Below, piece after piece: positions 1 to 51,511 of a stretch of 64,000 nt of DNA (position 1 is its first letter; every line of letters begins with the position of its first letter). Source of the DNA: Tetrahymena thermophila SB210 (Eukaryota; Ciliophora; Oligohymenophorea; Hymenostomatida; Tetrahymenidae). The notes below the pieces were generated by a model, which saw only the letters and a list, made by a program, of their open reading frames with translations, had not been told where the DNA came from and did not search any database. Where the stretch lies: positions 186,001-250,000 of the forward strand of contig NW_002476348.1 of the NCBI RefSeq assembly GCF_000189635.1, written 5' to 3'. A program made the position numbers and the translations under genes.

Positions 1-803
<803 letters not shown>

Positions 804-7070: not shown

Positions 7071-7790
7071 ATGTAGGGCACTTTTGGATATTGGTGGGTT
7101 AGAGGAAGCGCACAACCAATTCGTTTCTTATTGGCATATTTAAAGATAGAACATAATTCTAAAATATACACTAACTTTGATGACTGGTTTGCTATAGATA
7201 AACAAAATCTTGGTCTAGATTTACCTAATATCCCTTTCTGGATAGACAAGGATGTTAAACTTACAGAGTCAGCAGCTATACCTGTTTATTTAATAAAAAA
7301 ATGCAACAGACATGACCTTTTAGGCTAAAATAGAGATGGTTCTTTCAACTATAAAGAAGTATAAGTATAGCAACTTTTAGGTTATTTTAGAGACGTCAAC
7401 AGAGAGTTTACTTCAAATATATGCCCAAATAAGGATTTTGAAAATATTAAAGACAAATTACTCAATGAAAAAATGCAAAACATGCTTGATGTATTTAAAG
7501 CTTTTTTTAAAAAAAATATAATAAATTATTTATTTATTTTAAAGAAAATAGTAAAGATCCGTGGAAATCAATAATACCTACTAGGAGAAATTACGTATGC
7601 TGATTTTGTATTTTATGAAATATTAAATTACTACAAATATATATATCCACAAACCATAAATAAATCATTATAAGACTATATTAATAATTTCGAAAGTTTA
7701 CCAGGCATTAAAGAGTATTTGTTGCTTCCTGATATTGACCTAAAACAATTTTTACCTTCTCAATTTTACACTTGGTCAGGTCCCTAATGA
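7071..7790 (+). CDS. Glutathione S-transferase, mu-class-like (copy 2 of 3)
   Basis: Two exons, 7071-7490 and 7545-7790, with a 54-bp phase-0 intron at the same place as in the other two copies, give about 221 residues. The start is MQGTFGYWWVRGSAQPIRF: the catalytic-position Tyr is kept, but IRGLAEP of a standard mu GST is changed to VRGSAQP. The glutathione-site segment LPNIPFWIDKDVKLTESAAI is present. Exon 2 reads KIVKIRGNQQYLLGEITYAD and ends in YTWSGPQ before TGA. The intron resumes with KIV, matching KVV in copy 1, which supports the splice. Identity between copies is limited outside the GSH site, so the trio is an old duplication. Confidence 0.92.
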
Positions 7791-8167
7791 CGAATAATAA
7801 AACGAATATTTATTTGTTTATTTATAAAAATAGTTAATTTATTAAATTATTTTGTTTACTTTATAAAATCTACATGTTTTTTAAAATATTTAATTTATTT
7901 ACTAAAACAATTTTGGTAAGTATTAAAATAAATATTCATAATATCTACTAAAATATAAATAATTTATTACAAAAATAAACATTTGGTTGTCTATTTATTT
8001 TGTCAAGCAAATTAATTTTACATATCTTTTACAATATTTAAGATTTGTGTTTTTATGAATGATATTAATCAAATTATCTTTTAATATAACAAACAAATCT
8101 TTTAAATTAAATTGAATATCTAATCAAAATATTATCAATCAAACTCAAAAAATCAAAGATCTAAAAA
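7791..8167. other. Short intergenic spacer between GST copies 2 and 3
   Basis: 377 bp of AT-rich sequence. Nothing recognised beyond the A-rich stretch before the next ATG. Confidence 0.6.
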
Positions 8168-8883
8168 ATGTCTGAAGATAAGTTGATATTAGGTTATTGG
8201 CCATTTAGGGGTGTTGCTTAAACAATTAGATACCTTCTTGAATACTTGGAAGTTCCATACGAACAAAAAAGTTATATGACTTATGAAGAGTGGTTTGGAA
8301 AAGACAAAAAAGAATTAGGTGCTGATTTTCCTAATTTGCCCTACATTAAATAAGGAGATTTTATTTTAACAGAATCTTACGCAATAATTATATATCTATG
8401 TAAGAAATATAATAGATTAGATTTGTTAGGTGCAGATAAAAATGACTTAATTAGAGAGACTAAAGTTCATTAAGTAGCATCAGCCATCAAAGACACTGGA
8501 AAAACTATTGGTGATTTGTGTTTTAATCCTAAGTTCCATAGCGTTAAAGATGAGGTTTACACTCAAAAACTTTCATAAATGTTAAAAGTAAAAATATTTA
8601 TAATATTTATAAGTTAATTAACTGAATTTTAAAATAGAAAACCACTGATTTTTTGGGTGATAAACAATTTTTGTTAGGAGAATTAACTATCACTGATTTT
8701 ATGTTTTATGAGTAGCTATAATACTTCAAAAATATCTTCCCTGAAAGTATAACTCCTTAGTTATAGTAATTCATTGAAAGAATAGAAAACATTCCTAAAA
8801 TTAAAGAATTTTTAAATTCAGATAGAATTTTCAAAAAATAATTTCTTCCTCCTACCTTTGCAACTTGGTCAGGTATTGAGTGA
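8168..8883 (+). CDS. Glutathione S-transferase, mu-class-like (copy 3 of 3)
   Basis: Two exons, 8168-8587 and 8638-8883, with a 50-bp phase-0 intron, give about 221 residues. The N-terminus LILGYWPFRGVAQTIRYLL has the thioredoxin-fold Tyr, and FPNLPYIKQGDFILTESYAI is the glutathione-binding segment. Exon 2 begins KTTDFLGDKQFLLGELTITD and ends FATWSGIE. The intron falls after codon 140, as in copy 2 and one codon off copy 1. All three genes share strand, length and the WSG tail, so they are best read as a tandem family of detoxification enzymes. Separate promoters are likely, because the spacers are 377 bp to 4.8 kb. Confidence 0.92.
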
Positions 8884-15356: not shown

Positions 15357-16939
15357 GATGAAATAATTTAGAGTTTTAAATAATAAATAAGCTTTATTTC
15401 TACTAACATTAACTGATAATTGAATTATAAAATAAAAATATTAACCATAATTTTTAAAAAACAAACTTAACTTACATTTACTTCTGATAATTTATAAGCA
15501 AGACTTATTTAATAAAATAGCTTTTATAAAAAATAATTTATTTCTTTTAATAAAGAAATATTTGTTATTTTACTGCAAATTTGTGTATTAATTTTCTGTA
15601 TATTTTAGTTTTTCATCTCTCTTACTAATCGCACAGTATAAATTATATTAATGTCCATAACTATTTTAAATTCAAATCTGTTAATTTTAAGACTATAAAA
15701 ATTAAAATCCTCTAGTCAGTTCTGTTTGTCTTTCTGTCTCTATAATTAGGTTTAAATAATTTTTAGTACTAATTATAAACTCAAAAAGCTTAATTAATTC
15801 TTCTATTTATGTCTAAGATCAAATTTATTAGGTAAAGAATCATTTTCTGATAAATTTAATAATTTTGTTTTTGATTACTCTTATTTGTCGTTATTATTAT
15901 TAGTCTAAATTTATTTGGTTTTTTTTCATCGTTTTTCATCAGTTTCAATTAAATAAACAATTTTGTATTATGATTTTTCGCTTGAGTTATTTTTAAAAGA
16001 AGACTTGCTAGGTTAATTAAATTAAACAATAAATAATTGTTTATTTTTAGAGAATCTACCTATAATTAATCAAATAAAAAATATTTTGATGTATTAATAT
16101 AAAGAAATAATCATAATAACATTTTAATAATAGATATTTTTTCATCTTTTAGGTTTATTTTTAGAATGATTATTTTGTTTTCTTGTTTGTGTTTATTTTT
16201 TTGTTCAGATCAAATTACTATTTGGTAAATATTAAAGGATAATAATATTCTTTATTGTCTTGCAAATAAATAGATTCCAAAATGAATTATAGTGCGTAAC
16301 TCAAATTAAAATTTTAAATTATTGTTAGAATTTACTTTTCCTTTTATTAATCGATGGGTTCAATCGATGTATGACGTTTTGCAAATTCATCTATTCGTCA
16401 CTCTATATTTTTAATATTTACTCTATTTTAAAATACAAATTTTTTATAAATTGCATCTCAATTACAAATTTTTGTTTTTAGATATTTTATTGTTCTTGTA
16501 TTGAGTTTTTTAATTTTTCTAAAAATAGCTTTTTAAAATTTTAAGAATTGATATGAAAAATTAAAAACATATTAGAGAACTTATTTTTTTCGCATATTTC
16601 ACATGATCGAAGATCTCTGAAAATTAGAATCTTTGATAAGTACTAGTCAAATATTAAAAAATTAAAAAGCTTTATTAATTTATATGAAAATTAATTATTT
16701 TCAAAATGTTAAATATATTATTATCTAAACTATTATTAACAAATAAGTAAATAAATAAATTTTCTTAACTCTTTTACTCACAAAATCAAAATGTATTTTG
16801 TTTATTTTTTTGTTAGTTCTATTTCATTTTCTTAGTGAATTAATAGTTTATATATGCTTGAAATTTCTTTTACTGTATAGAAAGTAGTAAGTATCTTCTT
16901 ATATATATATTAAAACAGTATTACAATCTATTATAATAG
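15357..16939. other. AT-rich intergenic region
   Basis: About 1.6 kb. A GC-richer spot at about 16350-16400 contains the ATCGAT palindrome twice in an AATCGAT-type direct repeat. No gene recognised. Confidence 0.55.
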
Positions 16940-17344
16940 ATGCACTCAAATAAAATGAGAAAATTAAAAATAGAAACTATGTTAGTTAAATTTTGTAATA
17001 ACCATCCAGTATTCTACGAAAAAATGAAAGAAAAATACAATCTCTTAAGTGTGTAATATATTTCAAATCCTATATTAAATCGACGTAATTTCAAAAGGCT
17101 GATTCTTTTTATATAAATGTTTCTAATGAAATCCCAAAATATTCATCAAGTTTTATCAAATACCCCTTTTACAACCATTCAAAGAAATTAATAAAAACAA
17201 AGATTGAAGGCATTTAAAAAAGGCCTCCCACTGAAAAAGAAATATAATAAGTAATTAAATAAATAAATAGTAATAGTTTTCAAAAAATCAAAAAAAATTA
17301 AGTACTTTCTTCGCAATAAGAATTATTAAAACACCGAATAATGA
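16940..17344 (+). CDS. Possible small basic protein (hypothetical), overlapping the KAT1 start
   Basis: An open frame of 134 codons runs from ATG 16940 to TGA 17342-17344 without an intron. The predicted product is Lys/Arg-rich (KMRKLKIETMLVKFCNNHPV, then ILNRRNFKRLILF, ending in Lys/Asn-rich sequence) with no domain that I recognise. Base composition is less AT-rich than the surrounding spacer, which favours coding. Its stop shares four bases (ATGA) with the start codon of the following aminotransferase. It could be a real short gene, an upstream ORF in the KAT1 transcript, part of an unrecognised 5' exon, or a chance ORF. Chance is a serious alternative in a genome with one stop codon. Confidence 0.33.
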
Positions 17345-19327
17345 GTCAAATTAATCCATCTAACAATATAAAACCATTACTCTAGCCAACTATAATTTAA
17401 TCAATAGTCCGCCTTGCTATTGACTAAAAAGGTAACAGAATAATCACATTAGCTCTTTATAATTAAATTTACTTAAAAACTCCATTATATGTCCTATCTT
17501 TATCATATTACAGCTTGCTTTCTTTTTCATATTTATTTCTTATATTTTATTGTCTATTCGCAGATATTAACTTAAAATTTCTTTTCAAAATATATCATAG
17601 CAATCAATCTAGCCAGTGGATTCCCTGACTGGGATACTCCTTAATTTGTGACTAAGAGTATCGCTAATGCTTCTACTAGCGGTGAAAATCAATACTGTTT
17701 ACCTGGCGGACATCCAATTCTTCGTTAACAGATAGCAGCAACATATTCAAAAAGTCTTGGTATTGAAATTAATCCTGAAAAGAATGTAAAATTTAATTGA
17801 TTTCATAGAAAATAATTAAAATTATTTAATAATTAATAAAATAAAATTTCTTATTTAAAAAGGTTTTTGTTGGTTAAGGAGCAAGTGGAGTTATTTTTGA
17901 TATTTATACAGCACTTTTAAACCCTGGTGATGAAGTGATAATTTTTGATCCTCATTATGAATTCCTCTCAAAAGAAGCTAAGCTGGTTGGTGCTGTAGTA
18001 AGACACTGTTCACTCGAATAACCTAGAGATCTTGAAAATGGTGTCTGGACTATCAACTTTGATTAGTTTAAGAGTTTGTTTAATGAAAGAACAAAAATTG
18101 TATTGATCAATACCCCTCATAACCCCGTAATAAGAGACTCAATTAATAATTATTTATATTAAATATTAATTTTTTTTCTATTTCAAATTAAAACAGACTG
18201 GAAAAATCTTTACCAAAGAAGAGCTAAATCAAATTTCACAAATAATCTAAATGTATCCCTAAGTTGTTGTTATCGCAGATGAGGTCTATGAGCATTTGAC
18301 TTTTGACAATAAAAGTCTTAATAGAGTTTGCTAAACTCCAGGGCTTACTGACAGAACACTATCTGTCTATTCTATGGGAAAGGTATTTGTTATTTAATTT
18401 TCTTGAAAACATATTTTTTAAAGTTTATTTTTCTATTTTAAATAATGAACAAATAATTCATTTAATAATATTCTATCTTAATTATTTAGATTAATAAAAA
18501 TTCATTTTAAAAATTAAAAAATTCAATTAAAATAAATATTTTTTTTATCAAAATTTTTTAATTTTAATTCAATAAAAAAAATAATTTCTTTCTTTTAAAT
18601 TTGGAAAATACAAAAATATTTAATTAAATCCTTCTAATTACTTTTTATTCATCTAATGATTAGACTTTTAGTTGTACTGGTTGGAGAGTTGGATTTGCAA
18701 TAGGACCAGAAGAATTGATTAAATACGCCATAGCTGCTCACTCATATACTTGTTATTCTATTAATAGGCCTGCACAGGTATTATTATAAGATTTTAGAAT
18801 TAATTTATTTATAACTATTTAATTTATTAATTTAGGTTGGAATCGCAAACTGTTTAAGAATAGCTGAAAATAATTATGAAGGTTTCTAAAATTATTATAG
18901 TTACTTCAGAAATATATTTGAAAATAACAGAAATAAATTGATTGAGAATTTCAATTTGTTAGAAAGCCTTGACCTCAAATTAAACAAACCTGAAGGTGGT
19001 TACTTTTTGATTGGGTCTTTCGAAAAGTTTGCTACTAAAATTCCTCTAAGATATTTTTATAAAGATTATATGAATGTAATAAATGGAGACTAAGAGATAG
19101 GTATTCAATATGAGAAACTTGATAATCCTGAAGTCAGTCTTGATGTAGCATTCAGCACATATATGGCTGTGGAGAAAAAAGTGGCTGTGATTCCTCTTTC
19201 ATCATTCTATGGATAGGCTACAAACGACTTTAAAAGCTATCAAGGAAGATACTTATTCAGAATAGCTTTATGTAGAAAGGAGCAATCCTACCAAGATGCT
19301 ATCAACAGATTGAAAGAATCATCTTGA
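17341..19327 (+). CDS. Kynurenine--oxoglutarate/cysteine-S-conjugate aminotransferase-like (KAT copy 1)
   Basis: PLP-dependent class I/II aminotransferase, KAT/CCBL type. Six exons (17341-17431, 17601-17785, 17863-18126, 18197-18382, 18664-18777, 18836-19327) give about 443 residues. Seen: INLASGFPDWDTPQF, FVGQGASGVIFDIYTALLNP, the active-site segments LINTPHNPTGKIFTKEEL and VVIADEVYEHLTF, and the PLP-lysine motif SMGKTFSCTGWRVGF with Lys242 as the last codon of exon 4. The C-terminal domain includes LNKPEGGYFLIGSF and GRYLFRIALCRKE, with the conserved substrate-carboxylate Arg. The other two copies share all five intron positions and phases, which confirms the model. The short N-terminus shows no clear targeting signal. 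Whether it prefers kynurenine, glutamine or another amino donor cannot be told from sequence. Confidence 0.92.
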
Positions 19328-19821
19328 ATTGTCTTAAAGAGATTAATTAATCTTTTAAAAAAAAAATATTCTTACTAATAAATTCTCTTTCACCAAACTA
19401 TATAAATCATCATAAATAATTATTAGAAAAATATATTTATTCTTACTATCATTCATTACAAATAATATGCTATATAATATATCACATTTAATTCTTTGTT
19501 TATATATTATTGTTGAATTTTCACATGAAATTCTTTGATTACTATTCTAATACTTTTATATATTTTTAAATTTCTATGCATTTACTAGTTTTTTTCTTTT
19601 ATTTCGCAATATCTAGTGAATTATTCATCAAAAATAGCTTGAAAATACGCAGTTTTCTATTTATCATCTAAAAAATTTTTATAAATTAATTAATTAAGTT
19701 TGATATCATTAAGATTTTATAATAATAAATGATTGGTAATTTAGTAAAAAATTATAAAAATCTTAAAGCATTTAATCTATTAAAATAATTCATTCCAAAA
19801 GGATTTTCAACCTAAAAAAAG
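19328..19821. other. Spacer between KAT1 and KAT2
   Basis: AT-rich, no gene. The last ~40 bp before the KAT2 ATG (AAAAGGATTTTCAACCTAAA region) recur almost unchanged before KAT3 (about 23288-23311), so part of the promoter/leader was duplicated with the gene. Confidence 0.6.
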
Positions 19822-21503
19822 ATGTCTTTAGATAGTTAAATAGATATACAACCATCAAAGTTTATGCAAAAGCTTATAAACCCCACAATTTTTGAATTGA
19901 TAGTTCCTTTGTCACAAAAATATCAATGTATTACTTAACAAATAATTCAAAAATAATTGATAATTTTAATCATATTAAAATAAAGCAATTAACCTGGCTT
20001 CTGGTTTTCCTGACTGGGAAACCCCTGAGTTTTTATGCAACGCAGTCACAGAAGCTTTTAAACTGCCTGAACATCAATATGCCCCTGTTGGTGGTCATCC
20101 TGCTCTTATTTAAAAGCTTTGTGAAAGATATTCAAAATCATTAAATAGAAATATTCTTCCTCAAAATGTAAAACAAATTCTATGAAATTAAAGATAAAAA
20201 AGTTAATTATAAAAAGATATCTGTTGGTTTAGGTGGTAGCGGAGTTATTTATGATATCTATACTGCATTTTTGAATGAAGGAGATGAATTAATTGTTTTT
20301 GAGCCCTTTTTTGAGTACCATTCTAAAGAAGCTAAATTATTAGGTGTAAATGTTAAAGCTTGCAGTTTAATTGAACCTGAAGATTTTGAAAATGGAGAAT
20401 GGCAAATTGATTTCAAGCAATTCGAGAGCTTGATAAATGACAAAACTAGAATGATAGTCTTAAATTCTCCTCACAACCCTGTAAAATTAACTGATATTTA
20501 TTTTTAAATCAAAATAATATTCTAAATAGAATTTTATAATAATGTTAAAAAAAACATAAAAAAAATTGAAATAACGTATTTTTTTAAATAAAATAATAGA
20601 CAGGCAAAGTTTTTACAAGAGAGGAGTACCAAAAAATAGCTGATATAGTCAAAAAATATCCTAAGGTCCTTGTTCTAGCTGACGATGTTTATGAAACTTT
20701 AATTTATGACAATAAAGAATTCCCAAGATTTGTAGATATTCCTGGGATGTTTGAAAGAACTTTATAAGTTTTCTCATTAGGAAAAGTATATTTTTCAACA
20801 CTTATAAAAATTAATTAAAAAATATTCTAAAGTTATTTAGTTGCACTGGATGGAGAATTGGTTTTTGCATCGGACCTGAGTAATTCATAAAAATAGTTCG
20901 TGCTACTCATGCTATCATTTGCTATAGTGTTCACAGACCAGTTTAAGTAAATTTACTAGTCTTAAGGTAAGTGTTTTATAAAGCAATAAAAAATAGATTG
21001 GATTTGCAAAAGCATTAGATGAAGCTAAGTCTAAGTATATGGGAACAGATGATAATTATGAAGTAAATATTAGAAAAAGATTTGAAAAAAATAGAAATGT
21101 AATTTTAGAAGGATTCAAAAATTTAAATGCTAATTTGAAGTTAAATAAACCTTAAGGTGGATATTTTATAGTAGGTTCATTAAAAGATCATGTAGGCAAA
21201 ATTCCTCGTAAATATTTTTTTAAAGACTTTGAAAATGTACCTGACGGTGATGCTTTACTTGGTGATACTCCTTTTGAAGAATTTGAATAAGCAGAAGTAA
21301 CACCTGACGTTGCTTTCTTCAAGTATATGATTATAGAAAAAGGAGTTACAGTTATACCAATGTCTTCATTTTACATTTAAGATGACGAAAAAAATCTAAA
21401 AAATATTAAAGGGAGATATTTCTTTAGAATAGCACTTCCTCGTAAAGAAGAAACAATAAATTCTGCTTTTAAAAAGCTTAATCAAACATTAAAACAGAAC
21501 TGA
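19822..21503 (+). CDS. Kynurenine aminotransferase-like (KAT copy 2)
   Basis: Six exons (19822-19927, 19986-20167, 20217-20480, 20600-20785, 20833-20946, 20997-21503) give about 452 residues. It has the same fold markers as copy 1: INLASGFPDWETPEF, SVGLGGSGVIYD, NSPHNPTGKVFTREEY, VLADDVYETLIYD, the PLP-lysine SLGK (Lys246) followed by LFSCTGWRIGF, LNKPQGGYFIVGSL and GRYFFRIALPRKE. It differs from copy 1 at many sites, and QGASG of the cofactor region is LGGSG here, so the two may differ in substrate or cofactor handling. It is much closer to truncated copy 3 than to copy 1, both in protein and in introns. The TSPHNP/TGK junction spans intron 3, which is longer here (119 bp). Confidence 0.92.
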
Positions 21504-45287: not shown

Positions 45288-48200
45288 TCATTACTTTAGT
45301 AAGAAGTATATTGTATTTATGAAATGTTCTGCTAATTGCTAGTCAAATTATTCAACAGTATTCTGTTGAGATATAGCAAATTATATTTACATTTTTTAAA
45401 GTGGTTTAAATATGAACTTAAGCATATACTCACTATTTTCTTTCTAAATGAATGAAACTAACCCGCCAACTTTAAAATCACTTATTCCAGCAATATGCTC
45501 ATCTTTTTCAAAAGGAGTTAGTTCAATCAATTATGGGAAATATTTCATAATACTAAAAGAATTTTTAAGTATATTGGTAGAGTACTAAAATTCTTAAGAC
45601 TTAAATATATATTTTTATTGAATGAATTACCATTTCTATTTGAATATTGTTATATTTACATCTTTATAGACCATAAATTTGTTAATCATAGCAGGGAGAA
45701 CTAGTTAGACTTGCTAATCTTTTCCATTTTGCCTAATAAATTTAAAATTATTTGAAACCAAAATGATTAACTTAAATTGCTTACGTTAATAATATCGATC
45801 CCTCTGGTAAATTAAATGGGATTTTTATAATTTGAATCAATAGGTCTACTTTAACTTTGTGTTCTGATGGTATATCACATTTAACAACAGTCGGATTCAT
45901 TTTTACAACAACATCTAATTTGAAATTTAAATTAATTAATTGTTAATTTTTTTCAAAATATGGAGTTTATTATACCTTGATTTTCTATGTTGATGTATGA
46001 TAAATGGGTGATTTCCTGCTTAGAAATATTTAAAAAATGCACTGTTATTTTTAAGAAATGTTTTTTTGTTTAGCTATAATGATGGGATGTTAGTGTTCCA
46101 ACTTTCAAAATACTACTTTAAGAGATAACCCCTTTATCAGATAGGCATGATTTTCTGAATCTATCAAAAGAAGAGCTTTCTTTATTATCTTGCTCTAACA
46201 AGTTTGATAAAGAAGATTTTTAAAATTACTTCAAATAGTTTTATTGTATTAAATTATTAAATTTGAGAAGTTAGCCTTTAATATTGTTTGATTTATTTTT
46301 GTTGTTGTAGTAATCATCAGGTTTTTGAAATGGATAAATTAACTACTAAAAGAAGAAATCACATTTTTATCTTTCACTTGGAGTTATTGTAGAAGATTGC
46401 AAGTTTGTTGTTGTTGTAGCAAAGTTTTCAGTTTCATTTAAATTAAATGTTTGCTGGAAAGAATTAGGCTAAAGAGTGAGTATCATTCCACTATTGTTTA
46501 TTTTTTGTAAATTTTATTTTGAAGAATTTTGAGATTGACTTCTTTTAGTTAAAAAGGTAGCTTAAATAGCATTTTATGTGTTGCTTAGATTGTTATTATT
46601 GGTAATTACATTAATATTTTAGTTGACTGAATTTTATTATTGAGGATTTATATTAAAGCTAGTATTGTTGTGAGTACTTAAATGATAATCATTATTTTCA
46701 ATGTCAAGATAAAGTGTATTATCTTAAGAGTCCTTTTGTTCTGCAGAGAGGTTTAAAAAATCACTTGAAACTCTACTGTCACATCTACTATTATTCCTGC
46801 TTTCTTATCTGCTTCTTGACTGACCAAAACCATTACTACTACTTTAGAAGTTATTAGCTTAATTAGTGTTGTTAAATAATCCCATTGTATTAGAAAAGTA
46901 TTGGCTGTGGCTTGTTGTTGAATTGCCAGAATGAATTGGTGTTTTGCTCCTCAAATAATCACTCAAATTTAAATAGTTCTAAGAATTATTTGAGTAATTA
47001 TGCATATTACTTTTACTTCTTATTGTTGGCCTCTTCCTGTAAGTGTTATTACTTGACTCCTTTAAATTTATTTATTTTTGAATATTTTTAATAAATAAAA
47101 TTTAGATTTTCATTTTAAATTATAATTTAAAGTTTAGAAAAAAAATATTGAATTACTTCTTCGATGGTGTTGAGACCTCTTTAATTTTTAACACTTTAAG
47201 GAATTTGCTATTATGCAATCATTTAATCAAGAGAAAATTTTCTACTTTATGGCGTTTAAGTAGTTGGTTCTGAATGGAGAACTTTTTATACTTGAATTTA
47301 TCCAGAAGCATTAAAATCATTTTTAGTATTATTAAAAGAGGTATTAAGAGTATTATTTTAGTTTAAATAGCCTTAAGCTGCAAATAAATCTTACATAAGT
47401 TTGTGTTAATAATAATTAGATGCTTGAATTTAGTTTATTTGATCACTACTATTAGTGGTGATGTTAGAAAGCTTTAGCATTAAAGGGTTCAAATTTTGGG
47501 TTAAGCTGAGCTAATTCCTGGAAACAGAGATATTAGGCTATGTAGATTATTCTTCTGAGATAGAATCTCTTACATAGATAGGTGGTTTAGATGTAGGAGT
47601 TGCCTTTGTATCTATCTAAATTAATTGATTGTATTTATAAACAAATTAATTCATTTCTAGTAAATATTCTAAATTTTACTCTCATCATATCTTAACCATT
47701 ATAGCTAGAAAACTATGTAGATTTTAATGTCTAATCAAATGTATGAATGACGTTCTAGTTTTCAGATGTTTGTATTTCCAGATGATCTCTTTTGCTATTT
47801 TCATTCATAAACCAAAATATTAACAAAATTAATAAATCATATCAGTTAATAAATAAATAAAGAAAAAAATAAATAAATAAATAAATGAGAAAGAATAAAT
47901 TTTATGTTTTATACCTTTTTGGTCTTTAGTTTTCTGTTTAAATAGGCTAAAATGATTAAATAATTTTGTTTAGTTAGTCAATTTGCTGTTGTTGGAATTA
48001 TAATTTTTCTTCTATTTCTACTTGTTAGGATTTATTTTCTCCTGTTTATGAGTTGTTAACAGACCTATAAGTTAATTTAGAATTTTTGTTTTCTTCGATT
48101 TCTCTTTTGAGAGCGTTTCTTTCATTTTAAAGCTCTTATATTTGAGACTTCAACAAATTTAATTCTTCTTAGTTAAATTATCTATCAGTTGACATTGATC

Positions 48201-51200
48201 GAGCAGACTTTTATTACTGTTACTATATACTATTTAAATCTCTAATCTTTATATTTTGCTGCTCAAGCTTGCTATTAAGTTATTTTGATTCTTCTTTTAA
48301 GTCTTAAATAAGATCATTTAGCTCAGCATTATTTTGATTCAATTAATCAATATATTCTTTTTTAGCAAGAAGATCCTTCTGCAATTTAATATTTTCCAAT
48401 TCTATCTTTTCAATTTTTAAATTGAATTCTAATCTTTCATTTTAAAATTTCTGATCAACATTAATAGATTCCAATTCTAGTTGCTGATGTGAGACTGCTT
48501 TTGCTCTTTCATCGCTTAATTATTAAAGCAAATCTTAAACTTTATTTTTTAACTGATCTCTTTCTATCTAAACATTATTCAGCTAAGATTCTAGGTCTGA
48601 TAAATATTCGTTTTGTCTCTTCATATCGTCCTTTAAGATGGTGATCTATTTAGAGAGTCTTTCATTGTCAGCTTCGTATTTCTCAATTATAGTTCTTTTA
48701 CTCTGCAATTCTTACACCATGCTTTAAGTTTTTTTACTTTCAGACTACTTCTATTCATCAACAACTAGAGATATTCTTTTTGAGTGTTCAACATTTTCTT
48801 CTAATATCCTATTTTACTCTTCAATATCGTGAATCTAATTTTGTAAGTCTTTTATTTTTTCATTAAGCCTGAGCTTTTCTTTATCACTTTCATTTTCTTT
48901 TTAAGCTTTCTCCTTTTCACTCTCCTTATAAATGATAATATATTTAATAAGAAATAAATAAAAAATTGAATTTATCTTACTCTTATTCTTTGCAACATTT
49001 CATTTTCTCTTTTTTCATGAGAGTCCACCATTTCTTAATAATGATTTTTAAATTAATTCAATTCCTATCTAAGTTAAGAATTTTCAGACATAATCAGTTG
49101 ATAATCAGTCATTTATTGTTAATTTTATATAGTTTTATTTGTCAATTATGAAATTTTTTCTAAAGCCTGTTCCAGCTTCTAATGTAAAATATCCTTCTCA
49201 TCTATAATTAGATTTCTTTCTCTCTCTAAAACACTTATTTAATTTTCTAACTTTTCAATAGATATTTTTTACCTTTCACTTTCTCTCTTGTGCATCTAAA
49301 TTAAAATTTATAAGACATTTATATTAACTTTGAATGAATTAAATTAATTACTTCTTTCTCATCTTTATTTATTTTCACTTCTTTTTCAATTAATTCCTTT
49401 TCTTTTTCTTTTGCACTTAAGAGATTATTTAATCTTTAAATTTCCATCTGCTTTTCTTCTAAATTTCTTTGACTTAAATTTGCGTCTTCTTAGTTTTCTC
49501 TAAAAGATTTCATTTATTCTTTATATTAAAAAACGAATTATTTACATTTTCTAATTTTAATTATTACATTAATTATTGCTATCTACCCTGAAGGCTGGAG
49601 TGTTATTTGATGAGGAGAAGTTACTGCTACTATTATTTTAGATAACACCCCGGCTGCTATTGTTTGTTGTATTAAATTAAGAACCAAATTTAGGTTAGAT
49701 GTTATCTTCTTGCTTGTTCGATTATATAGCACTTGGATAATTGCCAAAACTATCTCTAGGATTTAAATTTTTACTGTTATCCTGCTTATTTAGATATACA
49801 ACATTATCATATTAGATAATATTTTTAGATTCATCTTTAATATTTTCCTTTTTATCAACCATTTCTCCATAATCATTGTTATCGTCGTACCTTGTTGAAG
49901 ATTTTCTCTCTTCTGATTACTATTTACTATATTTCTTTTCACTCGATTGATTATAATAATAAAGTCTAGGTGATTCTTCTTTTTATTTAGTTTTTTTATC
50001 TTTTGCAGAATTACTATCTTCAATAGTAAATCCACTACTTGAAATGTTTGATCTTTGCTTACTACTAATTTTTGAATCTCCATAATCAATTTCATCTATT
50101 TCTTCTATTTCTAAGTGGTGATTTGCTTGATTAGATTTAGAAGGCAAAGCAGTATTTTATTTTGTCTTTTTTTCTTGCTCTTCCTCCTCAAGTATTATTT
50201 ATAAAAGTTCCTTATTGGTAGTTTCTAAAAATAAATTTCTTAATTTAATAAAATCAATATTTTTCTATCTGTAAGATTTGTATGATTTCTACACTGATAT
50301 AGCCTTTATTTATAAATTAGATAAGTACTGTTTGTATTTCATTTCTAAATTTTTATATTAAGTATTAATCAGCTGTATAAATTCAAATGATTTATCAACA
50401 AACAAATCCACGACAGCAAACTAGCTTTCGAGTTCTATTAAATTTAAAAGATAAAAACATTATTTATAAAAACATAATAATAACTTTAAAAGACATTTTT
50501 ATTATTTAAATCTAATTTACCTTGTTAATTAATATTTTAATCACTTTTTTCATTGCTAATATTGACTTCAATTTATAAAATGACACTGTTAAACTTACTT
50601 ATCAAATCCTCTATTTCTTATGAGATGTCTCTTTAATTCCCTTTTTCATTGTTTTGTTATTTTTAATCCTATACTTATTCAGTTTATGGATTGGAAGACT
50701 ATTGTTACATTTCTTTTAAAGCTTATTTAAAATAATTGATTTTTTCAGGAAATTTAACACCTAATTCTACAAGTGATTCATAATATTACAAATAAGAAGA
50801 GATTTCGCTAGGATTTTCTAAATTATTTTGATATAAATAAGACCAAAATAAGAAACACTCCAAACTTAACCTCACTAAGCTATTTCCAATAATTTACATT
50901 TGCTACTCTATTTGATGATTTATTTACATAATAAAATTATAATCTTATATAGATATTCTATAAAAAAAAACCTGCTTTTTCGCCATAATAAAGAGATCCT
51001 CTATCATCATTTTAGCTTTAGTAATCAAATTTTGCTATTTAAAACATTGAATCTAAAATTGTTTTGTGCTTATTTAGCTTATTAATCATATCGATATTCT
51101 TCGTATCCATTGACTCTTTTAAGAGCTATTACATAATAAAAAAAGCTATTCCAAAACTGAATATTTTCAAATTACTAAGTAAATTAAATGATTATTTTAA

Positions 51201-51511
51201 AAAATTATTGATATTTTACTCTCAAAGAGTTAAGAATAGCAATTGGCTTAACTGTTGAGTTGGTTAAACAATACTCAGTAGTTTACAAAACTAAATTTAT
51301 TAATTCCCTAATTTTTTAAAAATGATTGACTATTATTTGTAAGAGTTGAATCTTCAAAATTATATTTTTTAATAAATCAAAATGATGCATTAACAAATTG
51401 TATTTACTGATCACCAGAGCTTATTGAAGATTTAATTTTTTTTATATTAGACTTATATGTTTCTAAATCGCTAAGAACATCATTTATAAGATCATTAACT
51501 TTTTTACTCAT
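45288..51511 (-). CDS. VHS-like domain + coiled coil + alpha-adaptin-type appendage (putative clathrin adaptor)
   Basis: Thirteen exons on the minus strand (51511-51408, 51307-51220, 51125-50972, 50907-50521, 50434-49568, 49518-49352, 49295-48981, 48924-47915, 47794-47680, 47615-47157, 47059-45976, 45914-45785, 45732-45288) give about 1,774 residues. Residues ~30-180 look like a VHS-type helical domain: PIAILNSLR/LLKESMDTKN, RGSLYYGEKA, VRLSLECFLFW, and the typical YESLVELGVKFPE ending. A second helical region (~240-330) could be GAT-like. A polar linker precedes coiled coil at ~535-1030, then an Asn/Ser-rich region. Residues ~1545-1774 match the alpha-adaptin ear: NPTVVKCDIPSEHKVKVDLL, QVQLVLPAMINKFM, IFKQKW, then a platform-like end. 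Phases agree at all junctions. The first four exons were chosen among competing frames because they restore the VHS pattern, and intron 3 would use a weaker GTTTT donor. Confidence 0.78.

Follow-up and report, generated by a model that had tools for sequence, protein, structure and literature searches.

A Tetrahymena gene that appears to combine a VHS-like head, a long coiled coil and an AP-2-alpha-type ear lobe

Gene structure and profile comparisons show that one predicted gene, lying in a 64,000-nucleotide stretch of the Tetrahymena thermophila SB210 genome (the window), combines a VHS-like head, a coiled-coil rod, a low-complexity hinge and the first lobe of an AP-2-alpha-type ear. Its product is probably a rod-like adaptor or tether in membrane trafficking, not tetrameric, of the kind described as KAE in Toxoplasma gondii and KIC4 in Plasmodium falciparum, a reading to which we assign a rough probability of 0.63. 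That head, coiled coil and alpha-type ear occur in one protein had been proposed in an earlier note made from the letters of the window alone, and this proposal is supported, the second lobe of the ear excepted.

Results

Gene structure and surroundings

The features of the gene are collected in Table 1. The hand-built chain of 13 exons splices to an open protein of 1775 residues when read with the ciliate code (table 6). Its 12 introns are all of the GT..AG type, measure 46-120 nt and have a GC content of 13%, compared to 26% in the exons. The single 13-exon gene suggested by the earlier note was thus borne out, at a length of 1775 residues where its numbering implies 1774, and the four peptides quoted there were all recovered on the minus strand under table 6.

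Table 1 Features of the gene and its predicted product (coordinates in the window; residues of the 1775-residue protein)
Feature	Residues	Window position	Strand	Basis or remark
Whole gene, 13 exons	1775 aa	45288..51511	minus	Ciliate code (table 6); TGA stop 45290-45288
Exons 1-7		51511-51408, 51307-51220, 51125-50972, 50907-50521, 50434-49546, 49499-49352, 49295-48981	minus	
Exons 8-13		48924-47915, 47794-47680, 47615-47157, 47059-45976, 45914-45785, 45732-45288	minus	
VHS-like domain	1-176	50726..51511 (exons 1-4, introns included)	minus	Profile A3 versus VHS profile A7
Peptide YESLVELGVKFP	158-169	50782-50747	minus	Table 6
Helical segment, at the place of GAT in GGAs, TOM1 and KIC4	205-310	50238..50641	minus	Periodicity
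N/S/K-rich stretch	311-540	49548..50237	minus	Composition
Coiled coil	541-1031	47917..49547	minus	Hydrophobic periodicity
N/Q/S-rich hinge	1032-1490	46259..47916	minus	Composition
Pre-ear short motif LIYPFQKPDDYYNNKNKSNNIKGQL	1463-1487	46268..46342	minus	By eye
Ear, first (Ig-like sandwich) lobe	1524-1633	45717..46159	minus	Profile A1 to AP-2 alpha appendage, E 3e-16
Peptide NPTVVKCDIPS	1591-1601	45897-45865	minus	Table 6
Ear, junction (LPAMINKFM...FKQKW) and second lobe at platform position	1634-1775	45291..45716	minus	Junction P 1.1e-5
Peptide VQLVLPAMINKFM	1636-1648	45710-45672	minus	Table 6
Peptide FKQKW	1658-1662	45644-45630	minus	Table 6

A first, crude gene finder gave its top score to a 15-exon model that omits parts of the head and the ear; this model was rejected because it leaves out stretches common to the relatives. 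A second, better-trained gene finder returned the 13-exon chain as one gene save for a 60-nt in-frame intron within exon 13, an agreement that is not independent, as the finder had been trained partly on the introns of the window gene itself. The relative on contig C160 keeps the residues at which this 60-nt intron was placed. Run over the whole window, the second finder continued the model into the next gene. The C-terminus at the stop codon of Table 1 was accepted because the same C-terminus is common to the family alignment. Comparison by hand moreover showed the first three introns to be identical in place and phase in the window gene and the C160 relative, and exon 12, of 130 nt, has an equal length in the relatives on C160 and C214.

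Just downstream of the gene, two genes with an identical start run downwards from 42106 and 44459 on the minus strand and appear by eye to be tandem elongation-factor-1A-like copies. On the plus strand of the window, the adjoining predicted genes at 16854-19327 and 19729-21503 read by eye as tandem class I aminotransferases, and those at 22-2296 and 7071-8883 encode predicted proteins with glutathione-S-transferase-like parts (by eye). The model at 22-2296 also contains an ABC-transporter-like part, and the gene finder has probably joined the two parts in error.

The ear

Searched singly against Pfam and PDB, the window ear gave no significant match. A profile built from the window ear and its ten relatives in the same genome (A1, 11 members) provided a different result. 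The best 7 of the 19 PDB sequences retrieved at E up to 10 are AP-2 alpha appendages (E 3e-16 to 4.1e-15), followed by AP-2 beta (0.0029-0.023), an unrelated adhesin (0.026) and the GGA2 ear (0.09), and lower down by AP-1 beta (0.1), the GGA1 ear (0.53) and coatomer (>3). The Pfam model Alpha_adaptinC2 matches six of the eleven ears singly (E up to 1, best 1e-7), the window ear not being among them. A profile search of the ear, as the earlier note had advised, hence leads to the AP-2 alpha appendage.

The match of the ear profile spans the first lobe and the junction, and the junction (LP..NKF....F...W) resembles the beginning of the platform of mouse alpha (P 1.1e-5). The tryptophan of the junction is followed by 113 residues in the window protein and by 98-113 in ten members, compared to 98 in mouse alpha (93 in the compared piece plus 5) and 121 in the AP-2-alpha-like gene on C86 (likewise counted from the piece). 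Past the junction, the second lobe (alignment A6, 10 of the 11 members, without C278) gave no significant local match to either of these platforms. When the sequence was shuffled with the junction kept, 1137 of 3000 trials reached the score for mouse and 1933 of 3000 that for C86. Anchored global alignment gave z = 2.7 for mouse (none of 200 shuffles as high) and 1.6 for C86 (14 of 200). The Pfam platform model Alpha_adaptin_C matched nowhere in this genome or in the control genomes, so that a blank scan with it does not show absence, and an AlphaFold2 prediction of exon 13 alone is meaningless as a model (mean pLDDT 39.8). We infer the second, platform lobe from its place and size; likeness in sequence is not demonstrable. 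Of the bilobal alpha-type ear proposed earlier, the first lobe and the junction are supported by the profile and the remainder of the second lobe is unsupported by sequence.

A separate AP-2 alpha

An AP-2-alpha-like gene with an ear of its own, separate from the family, is present at C86:173644-177557; it was recognised as alpha by eye from its N-terminal sequence. The family ear profile matches the C86 ear at 77.4% (P 2e-5). In a rough tree of ears, mouse AP-2 alpha is the partner of the C86 ear (94/89) and C160 that of the window ear (88/96), in a topology that has long branches (with a long-branch warning), unsettled bootstrap values and seven of ten inner branches open. The ear on C214 was considered as the true AP-2 alpha and rejected, as its gene model is that of a family member and the AP-2-alpha-like gene lies at C86. 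Genes on C172 and C329 read by eye as gamma-adaptins.

Of the 33 matches to the adaptin trunk (Adaptin_N) listed for the genome, where the best candidates were scored, none falls on the window's contig, C188, and the trunk does not appear among the Pfam matches of window residues 1-338. The window protein thus resembles AP-2 alpha (PDB 1w80, 1b9k and 1ky6; C86) in the first ear lobe and the junction, and differs from it in that a trunk was not found and a VHS-like head stands in its place.

The head

The window head, too, gave no significant match when searched singly in Pfam and PDB. The Pfam VHS model matched none of the 12 heads singly at E up to 1, which slightly lowers our confidence in the VHS reading, and in a scan of the genome it matched only C91 and C309, neither a family member. 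The best single Pfam match of any head was to PP4R3 (1.6e-4, one head). Support for the VHS-like N-terminus suggested in the earlier note is instead derived from profile-profile comparison. A profile of 9 of the 12 heads (A3, without C214, C184 and C391, and including a hand-corrected C160 head with one surplus residue at the first splice) matched a VHS profile (A7, the C91 protein of the same genome and five PDB chains) at 94.5% over 120 columns, with P 7.6e-8, including the VHS-typical end Y..L...G..FP. A profile of all 12 heads, with the C160 and C214 models uncorrected (A2), gave 94.2% and P 1.1e-7. The controls were two profiles from the same family, of the middle segment and of the platform, which reached 0.07% and 0.06%, respectively.

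Searched against PDB, A3 retrieved seven sequences at E <= 0.38, all of them VHS or VHS/ENTH and each weak (0.034-0.31): TOM1 twice, HRS, GGA2, STAM1, STAM2 and the "hypothetical protein" 1vdy, which we take to be an Arabidopsis ENTH/VHS protein. The cut-off of 0.38 was set after the A2 search, in which a designed repeat protein appeared at 0.40 and cytochrome c peroxidases followed from 0.41. In that search TOM1 ranked first (0.0039) and non-VHS sequences began at 0.40, among the best 60 of 106 sequences at E up to 10. Comparison of the head profile with the lone VHS protein C91 gave P 0.047, compared to 0.68 for an adaptin-trunk control, a value too weak to count by itself. The N-terminal fold is thus predicted to be of the type found in GGA, TOM1, HRS and STAM, of which the last three are not known to carry an ear.

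The middle region and its motifs

Residues 541-1031 show a 3.5-residue hydrophobic periodicity of 0.80, compared to 0.18 when shuffled (none of 200 shuffles as high), and contain 0.4% proline and 0.2% glycine. The coiled coil of about 500 residues noted earlier is therefore retained at about 490; as a measure of head-ear spacing it falls short, because two N/Q/S-rich stretches flank the coiled coil and place the ends about 1,350 residues apart. From its composition, the stretch of residues 311-540 is probably disordered. The pre-ear motif LIYPFQ.P..YY was seen by eye also in C160, C214 and C114.

For residues 205-310 the periodicity is 0.69 versus 0.24, with 4 of 200 shuffles as high. GAT was not supported for this segment by two family alignments, one of which (A8) contains 9 of the 12 middle segments: profile comparison gave 0.3% (P 0.18), the segment aligned poorly across the family, and in a PDB search none of the 24 sequences among the matches listed was named as a GAT protein.

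The clathrin box L-[LIVMF]-x-[LIVMF]-[DE] has no match in the whole window protein, and the designation "clathrin adaptor" of the earlier note is dropped accordingly. NPF, DPF/DPW, FxDxF and WxxF motifs were likewise not found in it. The only coat-like motifs there are three copies of D[FL][GF], for 0.3 expected (4 of 300 shuffles contain as many); these motifs may act as ligands for ears or for other components of the coat. The same motif occurs 12 times in the long Q/N-rich middle of C391 (1.2 when shuffled, none of 300 as many) and four times in C134 (0.8 when shuffled, 1 of 300 as many). A search for an Eps15-like partner with the EH model gave a sole match, in a gene reading like an EF-hand calcium-dependent kinase.

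These data bear on whether the protein is a GGA-type adaptor, working with Arf and clathrin at Golgi or endosomes and carrying a modified ear. Such an assignment would account for the order of a VHS-like head and a C-terminal ear, and for a helical segment at the position of GAT. GGAs have a single-lobed gamma-type ear, a GAT domain and clathrin boxes. An ear of this type was not found here, because the ear profile meets AP-2 alpha at 3e-16 and the GGA2 ear at 0.09 and because a further lobe-sized segment of 113 residues follows the first lobe and junction. Neither GAT nor a clathrin box was detected, and a coiled coil of 490 residues is, to our knowledge, not a GGA feature. We consider a GGA-type function improbable. 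Judged from its sequence, the window protein belongs neither with the GGAs nor with the AP-2 alpha subunits.

Paralogs and the integrity of the gene

Relatives were sought in the window's own genome (101 Mb, in which the ciliate telomerase RNA RF00025 is present with 161.9 bits and E 7.9e-29); C-numbers denote its contigs. Ear relatives were found on C160, C214, C114, C13, C209, C184, C391 and C134 (E 4.4e-24 down to 0.0058), and head relatives on C334, C389, C278, C160 and C178. Gene models add ears at C278 and C178, giving eleven ear loci with the window included. The C334 head led to further head-like places at C221:132860-133348, C221:152653-153132 and C130:119970-120125.

Upstream of the ear, and on its strand, a head-like stretch was detected at 10 of the 11 loci. 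The profiles for this 10/11 scan contained all 11 ears and seven of the ten heads; the three heads outside them scored 3e-8 (C391), 7.8e-4 (C214) and 5.3e-3 (C184). No head was found within 9.5 kb of the C134 ear, and no ear was detected within the 9.5-kb stretches around C334 and C389, which are head-and-coiled-coil genes.

One may ask whether two neighbouring genes, one for a VHS-like coiled-coil protein and one for an ear protein, have been wrongly joined. Head genes with no detectable ear (C334 and C389) do exist, and the gene finder made false joins elsewhere. Against this, the window gene forms a single open splice chain with low-GC introns, and the gene models of relatives likewise span head and ear. 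A false join is unlikely, since the order of head before ear on one strand recurs at 10 of these 11 loci; we leave it only a very slight chance.

Two observations concern individual relatives. Recoding at an in-frame TGA between the head and ear frames of C278 was considered and rejected, as the TGA has AT-rich surroundings and lies inside a predicted intron. Upstream of the family gene on C209, the model is fused to an open stretch that is transposase-like by eye, likely a false join.

Discussion

Comparison with KIC4 and KAE

The two known proteins were compared by their published descriptions, in the excerpts used here. KIC4, of the Plasmodium K13 compartment, is described as VHS, GAT, hinge, Ig-like appendage and second appendage lobe; it is called a GGA/AP hybrid seen in no other protein, with KAE named as its homologue (PMC10718435). 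The window protein shares with it an N-terminal VHS(-like) domain, a long foldless region, an Ig-like appendage followed by a lobe-sized segment and, going by the KIC4 domain list, the lack of an adaptin trunk; KIC4 differs in having GAT and a last lobe read as beta-type, and a coiled coil is not mentioned in the excerpts (PMC10718435). Toxoplasma KAE (TGME49_272600) has a conserved alpha ear in a protein otherwise unlike AP-2 alpha, contains coiled-coil motifs, resides at the AP-2-lined micropore and binds Eps15L via WxxF through its ear; its depletion causes a strong growth defect (PMC10105704). It is like the window protein in being large, with a C-terminal alpha-type ear and a coiled coil, and in existing alongside a separate AP-2 alpha. 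Conversely, KAE is described in these excerpts as having no other conserved domains and as part of the K13 complex (PMC10105704), whereas the ciliate protein carries a VHS-like head and belongs to a set of at least eleven ear-bearing paralogs. According to the same source, the split between AP-2 alpha and KAE extends to all alveolates, and K13 is apparently absent from ciliates.

The features that connect the window protein to KAE and KIC4 are thus, as predicted from its sequence, the first lobe of an alpha ear, carried by a protein lacking a detected trunk in a genome with a separate AP-2 alpha, together with an N-terminal VHS-like domain and a coiled coil. The term "ciliate-specific" used in the earlier note is not upheld, since the published KIC4 comes close to the "GGA-like plus bilobal ear" pattern (PMC10718435). 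What appears to be new is the VHS-like head in a ciliate member, the at least eleven ear-bearing paralogs and the head-only relatives; no description of a ciliate VHS-ear protein was found among the papers listed in literature searches, as judged by titles and abstract openings.

Possible function

In a protein of the KAE/KIC4 kind, the coiled coil would oligomerise into a rod, and the VHS-like head would bind sorting signals, ubiquitin or membrane at endocytic sites of the cell surface, in ciliates most likely the parasomal sacs. On its flexible hinge the ear would recruit accessory proteins with short ear-binding motifs, for which AP-2 alpha in animals and the KAE ear with Eps15L in Toxoplasma offer precedent. 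By analogy with the latter and its WxxF contact, recruitment as by AP-2 is plausible. The adaptor would work beside AP-2 and not inside it, and the paralogs may serve different membrane sites or cargoes. As for clathrin in such systems, Plasmodium AP-2 has been argued to be clathrin-independent in the part of the source drawn on (PMC7042695), and a 2025 paper indicates clathrin involvement by its title (PMC12742282).

Several results weigh against the KAE/KIC4 assignment. The window head and ear singly match nothing significant, the Pfam VHS model misses all 12 heads while one of them matches PP4R3 at 1.6e-4, the second lobe is unrecognisable by sequence, Alpha_adaptin_C matches nowhere, and GAT, the clathrin box, the NPF, DPF/DPW, FxDxF and WxxF motifs and an Eps15-like partner were not found in the searches above. 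Moreover, KIC4 is dispensable in blood stages, with an endocytosis defect not detected according to the excerpts of its description (PMC10718435).

The protein might alternatively be a long tether or cytoskeletal linker that reuses head and ear with no cargo-sorting role, its coiled coil acting as a stable collar that anchors endocytic sites at the cortex. Most of the protein does consist of coiled coil and low-complexity sequence, the missing clathrin box fits, and the Toxoplasma K13 complex is described in the excerpts as a stable ring situated where the pellicle has gaps (PMC10105704). The fact that both head and ear align among the family members suggests, however, that the two ends serve in binding, and we regard a purely structural role as rather unlikely, with the adaptor or tether of the KAE/KIC4 kind remaining the preferred reading.

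Implications

With at least eleven ear-bearing genes of this kind in a ciliate, the design would seem to predate parasitism. Tentatively, and at somewhat less than even odds, VHS plus alpha-ear adaptors could be an ancestral alveolate invention in which an AP-2 accessory hub was taken over before K13; it would have diversified here, giving head-only relatives besides at least eleven genes with an ear, different cortical endocytic sites each having their own hub, and KIC4 would be a reduced remnant of a free-living toolkit. KIC4 and KAE belong to a feeding-pore complex tied to the artemisinin response, and the KIC4 domain set is held to be unique in the excerpts considered (PMC10718435). If the assignment proposed here is true, the combination of VHS and alpha ear would predate the split of ciliates and apicomplexans, its function could be learned in a genetically tractable organism, and the finding would bear on how AP-2 functions are divided among alveolate proteins.
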